DNA from: Chloroflexota bacterium
GTDB taxonomy: Bacteria; Chloroflexota; Dehalococcoidia; DSTF01; JACRBR01
Direction of reading: 5' to 3'
DNA length: 11,224 bases
Assembly: GCA_021813085.1 (NCBI GenBank)
Contig: JAKAMA010000043.1
Coordinates: forward strand, 1-11,224
Shown here: piece after piece, positions 9,221 to 10,657 of the stretch
Position numbering within the stretch: the stretch's first letter is position 1
Layout of the letters: each line of letters begins with the position of its first letter
Position numbers and translations under genes: made by a program
The notes under the pieces: model-generated
What the model was told of the DNA's origin: nothing
Database searches by the model: none
Seen by the model: only the letters and a program-made list of their open reading frames with translations

Positions 9221-9610
9221 GCTACCGACTCCCTCTACCGTCAGAGTCGGCGCGAGTCCAGAAATCTGAGGCCTCCTCCAAGGGTTCCCGGCGGCGCGCC
9301 CCCGCCCCCGCCGGGGTGGCGGCGTCGCAGGCTGGGCGCAAGCCGGTATCGGGGACCATGCGGTCTGACATCCTTGCCCTGGCGGCGCCGGCGTCCGCCT
9401 GCTCCGAACGCTCTAACCGCCGGGCAGGAGAGAAAGTGACGCCCTCTCACGCCGAACCGGGCATTCCTGACCGGTGGTGACCCGGCGCCCGCAGCCCGAC
9501 GAGGGGCGGCCCGTCCCGCGCACGGCGTCCGCCTCGGCACGCCTGCGGGCCCGGGCCGGAGCCGATACCCTGACGCCGCGCGCGATGCGCCTGAGAGGGG
9601 GTGATGCCGC
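9221..9610. other. 390-base divergent non-coding region between the CAP gene and selD
   Basis: No credible protein gene: the long minus-strand frame here is Arg/Pro/Gly-rich and runs antisense into selD. No tRNA is found; specifically, no TUCA-containing anticodon loop that could be tRNA-Sec. It must hold the promoters of both flanking genes, though none is clear (TACCCT at 9566-9571 is a weak -10 candidate for selD). Visible hairpins are CCGCCCCC paired with GGGG-U-GGCGG at 9302-9322 and ACCGG (9456-9460) with CCGGT (9471-9475). It may contain a structured leader RNA; I recognise no known riboswitch class. Confidence 0.5.
9596..9605 (+). promoter_or_regulatory. Shine-Dalgarno fixing the upstream start of selD
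   Basis: AGGGGGTGAT differs by one base from a full AGGAGGTGAT and lies at a normal distance (GGGGG ends nine bases before) from the GTG at 9611. It supports initiation at 9611 rather than at the internal GTG 9695, which has no such site. An in-frame TGA at 9602 excludes any longer N-terminus. Confidence 0.8.
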
Positions 9611-10657
9611 GTGACACGAGAAGAAGTCCGGCTGACGAGCCTGGCGTCCTGCGCCGGTTGAGCCGGCAAGGCGGGCATTGCCACGCTGGCGCAGGTGCTG
9701 CGCCCCATCACGGAGACGTTCGCCGCATCCGCCTTCCCCGACCTGCTCGTCGGGATCGAAGGGCCGGACGACGCGGCCGTCTACCGTCTGACGGACGAGA
9801 TCGCCATCGTCCAGACGGTGGACTTCTTTCCGCCTGTCGTCGACGACCCGCGACAGTTCGGCGGCATCGCCGCGGCCAACGCCATGAGCGACGTCTACGC
9901 CATGGGCGGTGAGGTGCTGCTGGCGCTGAACATCGCCGCCTTCCCGGAGGATCTCGATCCCGCAGTGATCGCGCGCGTCTTCCACGGCGGCGCCGAGAAG
10001 GTCGCCGAGGCGGGCGGCGTCATCGCCGGCGGCCACACGCTGTACGATGCCGAGCCGAAGTACGGCCTCGCCGTCACCGGCGTGGTCCACCCGGACCGCG
10101 TCATCGCCAAGGCCGGCGCGCGTGCGGGCGATGCGCTCGTGCTCACGAAGCCGCTGGGGACGGGCATCGTGCTGACGGCCGCGCGCGACGGCCGCGACCC
10201 TGCGGGACACGCCGCCGCCGCGGTCGTGAGCATGCTCGCGCTCAACCGCCACGCCTCCCACCTCGCACGCGACGCGGGGGCGCACGCGATGACCGACGTG
10301 ACCGGCTTCGGGCTGCTGGGCCACGCGGACGAGGTCGCCGCCCGCAGCGATGTGCGCATCGTCATCGATGCGGCGCGCGTGCCGGCGCTGCCGGGGGCAC
10401 TCGCGTACGCCGCCCTGGGCATCGTGACGGGCGGCGCCGCGCGCAACCGCGACGGCCTCGCGGACCGCGTGCGGCTGCCGGCGGGGCTCGATGCGGCGGT
10501 CGCGCACCTGCTCTTCGACCCGCAGACGTCGGGCGGGCTGCTCGTCGCGCTCGCGCCGCCCGCCGCGCGGGCGATGGTGCGGCGGCTGCACGACGACGGG
10601 CTGCCGGGCGCCGTCGTCGGGCGCGTGGAGGCGGGCGCGGGCGTGGTGGTCGAGTAG
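9611..10657 (+). CDS. selD: Selenophosphate synthetase with selenocysteine at residue 17 (348 aa, reads through in-frame UGA)
   Basis: Makes selenophosphate from selenide and ATP, the selenium donor for Sec-tRNA and selenouridine. Reading from GTG 9611 gives MTREEVRLTSLASCAGUAGK, with TGA at codon 17. This aligns without gaps to E. coli SelD (R7-L8-T9 ... C17 ... K20): the catalytic Cys17 position is U17 and the essential Lys20 is kept. An extra Cys14 precedes it. Downstream motifs are GPDDAAV with D53/D54, QTVDFF with D71, NAMSDVYAMGG with D94, GGHTLYDAEPKYGLAVTG, TDVTGFGLLGHADE and DPQTSGGLLVA, all typical, with normal family length. A start at 9695 would delete U17 and K20 and has no ribosome binding site. 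A SECIS-like hairpin follows the TGA. The gene is divergent from the CAP gene and 124 bases before glgA. A sequencing error making TGC or TGT into TGA is the main alternative. Confidence 0.92.
9659..9661 (+). other. In-frame UGA codon read as selenocysteine (Sec17 of SelD)
   Basis: The only stop triplet in an otherwise continuous, homologous frame from 9611 to 10657. It falls exactly on the SelD active-site Cys/Sec position, inside CAGUAGK. Confidence 0.87.
9665..9682 (+). other. Small hairpin directly after the Sec codon
   Basis: GGCAA (9665-9669) pairs with UUGCC (9678-9682) around an 8-base loop GGCGGGCA. It can coexist with the larger hairpin at 9688-9704. A competing fold pairs GCCGGC (9662-9667) with GCUGGC (9685-9690) and would exclude the latter. 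Its role is unknown; it is close to the UGA for a SECIS apical loop. Confidence 0.4.
9688..9704 (+). promoter_or_regulatory. Candidate bacterial SECIS hairpin in selD mRNA
   Basis: GGCGCAG (9688-9694) pairs perfectly with CUGCGCC (9698-9704), giving a 7-bp stem. If the top G-C opens, the loop is GGUGC. The tip GCAGGUGCUGC closely resembles the GCAGGUCUGC tip of the E. coli fdhF SECIS that SelB binds (from memory). The first G of GGU lies 32 bases after the UGA, within the UGA-to-loop distance I recall for bacterial SECIS elements (roughly 16-37). It is located inside the coding sequence, as is usual in bacteria. Confidence 0.72.

Follow-up and report, generated by a model that had tools for sequence, protein, structure and literature searches.

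The window, the whole stretch of DNA that was analysed (11,224 nucleotides), almost certainly carries an ordinary selenocysteine-containing SelD in which the UGA at codon 17 would be read as selenocysteine (Sec). The selD gene, which encodes selenophosphate synthetase, extends from 9611 to 10657 on the forward strand. This frame is opened by GTG at 9611–9613 and closed by TAG at 10655–10657. Its sole internal stop is the forward-strand TGA at 9659–9661, which is codon 17. The nearest in-frame stop upstream of GTG 9611 is a TGA at 9602–9604, and GTG 9611 is the only in-frame ATG, GTG or TTG between these two TGA codons. Ahead of it on the same strand, GAGGGGGTGAT at 9595–9605 shares 9 of 11 bases with the extended Shine-Dalgarno consensus AAGGAGGTGAT. 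A preliminary description of this DNA had placed the start at the same GTG with a Shine-Dalgarno sequence, named the same TGA as the sole internal stop, and traced SelD homology to 10657. The reading frame, the 9 matching bases and the family profile agree with it on each point.

In the comparison with NCBIfam TIGR00476 (cut-off 125), the product translated from GTG 9611 scores 368.8 bits and covers profile positions 1–310 of 311. The product translated from GTG 9695 scores 344.8 bits, 24 bits lower, and covers positions 30–310. Since the longer form scores higher, the segment before and around the TGA contributes SelD homology. The product also contains the Pfam AIRS and AIRS_C domains. It aligns with PDB 3u0o, which we take to be E. 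coli SelD, at E 4.9e-66, without gaps across query residues 2–35. In this alignment the residue of the TGA codon falls opposite the catalytic Cys17, and Lys20 and the RLT at residues 7–9 coincide, as the preliminary description had stated. The two enzymes differ in that the E. coli type has its own Cys17 and a second cysteine, Cys19, whereas the window SelD has a predicted Sec and a Gly at these places.

Codon 17 was located in all of 111 SelD loci: that of the window, 80 of at least 224 confirmed contig loci, and 30 drawn from whole-genome relatives, a number that includes L046, a re-fetched copy of the window locus. It is TGA in 101 loci, TGC in seven and TGT in three; some of these loci seem to be duplicate entries of a single gene, such as L047 and L068. 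Reduced to distinct 60-base stretches, the loci comprise 96 TGA forms and ten Cys forms. Most of the 111 have RLT before codon 17 and Lys three codons later, and most are of the single-Sec form, without a second Cys two residues on. Across 60 genomes, SelD is above the cut-off in 39, with 40 matches. One TGA lies inside 38 of these matches and none inside the other two (G004 and G047). The exact position of the codon was examined in the 30 fetched loci and in G002. A scan for conserved TGA codons near sel genes in five genomes is dominated by wrong-frame matches and was used only for the SelD codon. The best named SelD matches, among those listed, are from Dehalococcoidia and other Chloroflexota assemblies, which makes an origin of the window in that group most likely. 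In G017, SelD appears as two adjacent matches 10 bases apart on contig C62 (13342–14061 and 14072–14311; profile positions 1–240 and 241–310), as if split by a frameshift or an assembly error.

Within the family of the window's genome, G004 carries a Cys-type SelD (L042, C430:3542–4474) that is 74% identical to the window SelD. It has TGC at codon 17 and no rule-passing hairpin with its loop 28–37 nt downstream. G004 nevertheless retains tRNA-Sec and a SelB relative. Comparison of the two sequences shows what would be a Sec/Cys exchange inside one family, with a predicted hairpin accompanying the UGA.

It is very unlikely that translation really ends at the TGA, or that sequencing or assembly turned a Cys codon into it, with the window SelD then being a pseudogene or an ordinary Cys enzyme. 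A single base separates TGA from TGC and TGT, the Cys codons that ten of the 111 loci have. However, the same TGA is present in 101 of the 111 loci (80 of the at least 224 contig loci being included), and it stands in G001, G002 and G003, which are separate genomes of the genus and family. The frame past the TGA is also open to 10655 and retains full SelD family homology.

In the list of open reading frames made without recoding, the SelD frame begins at GTG 9695–9697 on the forward strand. The preliminary description had warned that a simple caller would start there, giving a protein without the active site; the list does start there. As an in-frame start downstream of the TGA, this codon could in principle open an enzyme without the N-terminal part, but such a start is hardly credible here. 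The 16 codons ahead of the TGA are SelD-like across loci, most of them having RLT before it and Lys three codons further on; the Shine-Dalgarno-like sequence stands before GTG 9611; and only in the longer form does the TIGR00476 match reach profile position 1. A start at 9695 would also lose the catalytic residue. The annotation is thus corrected here, and the same trap awaits 101 of the 111 SelD loci examined (with 80 of the at least 224 confirmed contig loci), which have the TGA.

The draft genome of the window, G000, is 2.52 Mb in 399 contigs, 76.8% complete, with 3.73% estimated contamination. It contains an intact selA on contig C59 (525.6 bits against a cut-off of 267.9). Its selB is represented by the C-terminal 300 residues, in a frame that starts at the edge of contig C128. 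By itself this frame scores 29.8 bits for SelB. Across all 300 residues it shares 89% identity with the closing stretch of a 609-residue protein of G001, and that protein reaches 312.6 bits for SelB (cut-off 242.25). This match to the C-terminal part of a complete SelB is the reason for assigning the fragment to selB. Both contigs lie apart from the window, and at 3.73% contamination they could in principle be foreign to the genome.

In the G000 draft, 76.8% complete, tRNA-Sec was not found: ten matches fall below the family cut-off, and none is returned with stricter settings. ARAGORN identifies eight of the ten as Trp, Leu, Arg and Ser tRNAs. In the window, ARAGORN and Rfam gave no match. 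ARAGORN finds tRNA-Sec with anticodon tca in four near relatives, G001, G002, G003 and G004. The 3-kb surroundings of the G001 tRNA-Sec have only four short matches in G000 (49–155 bases, 71–83% identity), though the SelD proteins of the two genomes are 94.8% identical. From this comparison, the tRNA-Sec neighbourhood is most likely missing from the G000 assembly. The missing tRNA-Sec stands against Sec, but in a draft of 76.8% completeness it may reflect a gap in the assembly. The preliminary description had called for selA, selB and tRNA-Sec in the same genome. The first is present, the second is present as a contig-edge fragment, and the third is found in the near relatives instead of in G000. 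It had also held that a complete genome without selB and tRNA-Sec would speak against Sec; G000 is a draft and has the selB fragment.

In the wider survey (strict filters, E 1e-9), 32 of the 37 genomes whose SelD is above the cut-off and contains the TGA have tRNA-Sec, as do 4 of the 23 others. Genomes with a TGA-bearing SelD in which it was not found are G000, G015, G022, G026 and G043. Genomes with tRNA-Sec but without an above-cut-off, TGA-bearing SelD are G004, G010, G013 and G019. In the last three, tRNA-Sec is above its cut-off and no SelD is, with a partial SelD-like match in G010; these are probably incomplete drafts.

A full-length SelD frame would be expected from any readthrough, but decoding of the UGA as some other residue, whether by a near-cognate tRNA or under an altered genetic code, is most improbable: the alternates at codon 17 are TGC and TGT only (111 loci, with 80 of the at least 224 contig loci), selA, selB and tRNA-Sec belong to the lineage, and eight further genes of the window with a family assignment read as open frames under table 11, so there is no general recoding of UGA. 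Elsewhere in the window, a gene for a DUF1326 protein (PF07040, 1705–2343) lies directly before one for a PpoB2 'copper chaperone' protein (PF09948, 2404–3189), both on the forward strand.

A putative bacterial SECIS hairpin, GGCGCAG-GTG-CTGCGCC, lies at 9688–9704 on the forward strand (-11.3 kcal/mol), with its loop 33 nt after the UGA. The loop is GTG 9695, the start chosen by the non-recoding ORF caller. PMC13188914 gives the bSECIS rules as a loop of 3–9 nt that lies 16–37 nt from the UGA and has a G within its first two positions, on a stem of 4 bp or more. The hairpin fits these published rules. Taken by itself, the window hairpin is not significant, as 12.2% of synonymous resamplings also form all seven pairs. 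The 51-nt fold around the window UGA is matched by shuffled sequences (z 0.04). Since such a shuffle is uninformative in GC-rich sequence, synonymous resampling was instead carried out across the set.

In this control (20 synonymous resamplings over the set, with relatedness ignored), the best rule-passing hairpin has a mean of -9.49 kcal/mol in the 96 distinct Sec genes, against -4.42 (sd 0.41) when resampled. In the ten Cys genes the mean is -4.54, against -3.77 (sd 1.01). For loops at 28–37 nt, the Sec genes average -7.61 against -1.97 (sd 0.36). The Cys genes are somewhat under their control at this distance (-4.26 against -2.40, sd 0.97), and three of the ten reach -6 kcal/mol. For loops at 10–24 nt, both groups fall below control, the Sec genes at -4.31 against -2.48 (sd 0.24) and the Cys genes at -2.80 against -1.67 (sd 0.53). 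Over the set, the hairpin clearly exceeds the synonymous controls in the Sec genes; in the Cys genes any excess is weak at most.

All seven pairs of the window hairpin are present in 57 of the 96 distinct Sec genes and in none of the ten Cys genes; fewer than six of the seven are present in 32 of the 96. Two-sided changes occur at six of the seven pairs, most of them at pair 1 (11 sequences). In several relatives a different hairpin folds directly after the UGA. The hairpin at 9688–9704 is likely, not proven, to be the SECIS of the window selD.

Insertion of Sec at the UGA, as the preliminary description had proposed, is supported by the exchange of Sec and Cys codons, the intact selA, the selB fragment, the tRNA-Sec of the relatives and the SECIS-like hairpin. 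Translation would begin at GTG 9611. SelB and Sec-tRNA-Sec, recruited by a downstream hairpin (most likely that at 9688–9704), would insert Sec at UGA 17, and the ribosome would continue to the TAG at 10655. Sec17 and Lys20 would then belong to the active-site loop, and selenophosphate would be made from selenide and ATP, a chemistry established for the family and presumed for this member. Selenophosphate would in turn be used by SelA to form Sec-tRNA-Sec, and SelD would thus require its own product for its synthesis. The gene had been called autocatalytic for this reason, and the term applies here in no wider sense than has been described for Sec-containing SelD elsewhere.

Other selenium users were sought in the genus, whose most complete genome is G002 (98%), and in its relatives. 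FdhA has no match at E 1e-40 in G000, G001, G002, G004, G005 and G006 (20 genomes searched), and YbbB has no match in G000–G008. Of the eight genomes searched for the UGSC family, G000–G003 have no match and G004 has a partial one. The SelW/Rdx matches of G000–G005 are without TGA (eight genomes searched), and the seven AhpC/TSA matches of G000 have no internal stop. Taken over G000–G004, there is no TGA-bearing match to FdhA, UGSC or Rdx/SelW, nor to AhpC/TSA in G000.

TGA-bearing Fdh-alpha matches are found in G008, G009, G010 and G017, those of G008, G009 and G010 being below the family cut-off. In G009, an above-cut-off match to the UGSC family has one TGA inside (L172, C49:4923–5351), and the same contig has an Rdx match without a stop (C49:1127–1348). 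In G008, a SelW/Rdx match has one TGA inside (L176, C11:38066–38284) and is likely a selenoprotein in the same order, judging by its sequence.

From the FdhA, YbbB, UGSC and SelW/Rdx searches in G000, G001 and G002, it might be supposed that SelD stands alone, or nearly so, as a selenoprotein in the window's genus, with no selenouridine pathway and with the sel genes kept largely for SelD itself. If this were true, selA, selB, tRNA-Sec and selD would form a self-serving loop. Zhang et al. 2006 (PMC1794560) reported several species with YbbB in which SelD is the one selenoprotein. For the window's genus, this reading is improbable. At least in G004 another selenoprotein would be expected, because its SelD is of the Cys type, yet tRNA-Sec and a SelB relative are kept. 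This suggests another selenoprotein in the family, which counts against SelD as the only one.

According to PMC1794560, PMC2398784, PMC4561486 and PMC13188914, Sec-containing SelD is a well-described bacterial selenoprotein family. The known members share with the window gene full-length SelD homology, an in-frame UGA where the catalytic residue near the N-terminus is encoded and Sec machinery in the lineage, and there is no difference of substance. It was known before that SelD, which makes the Sec donor, is often a selenoprotein too. The finding leaves knowledge of SelD unchanged, and no claim of a first report in the Chloroflexi is made. The window selD is the long-known arrangement in one more uncultured bacterium.
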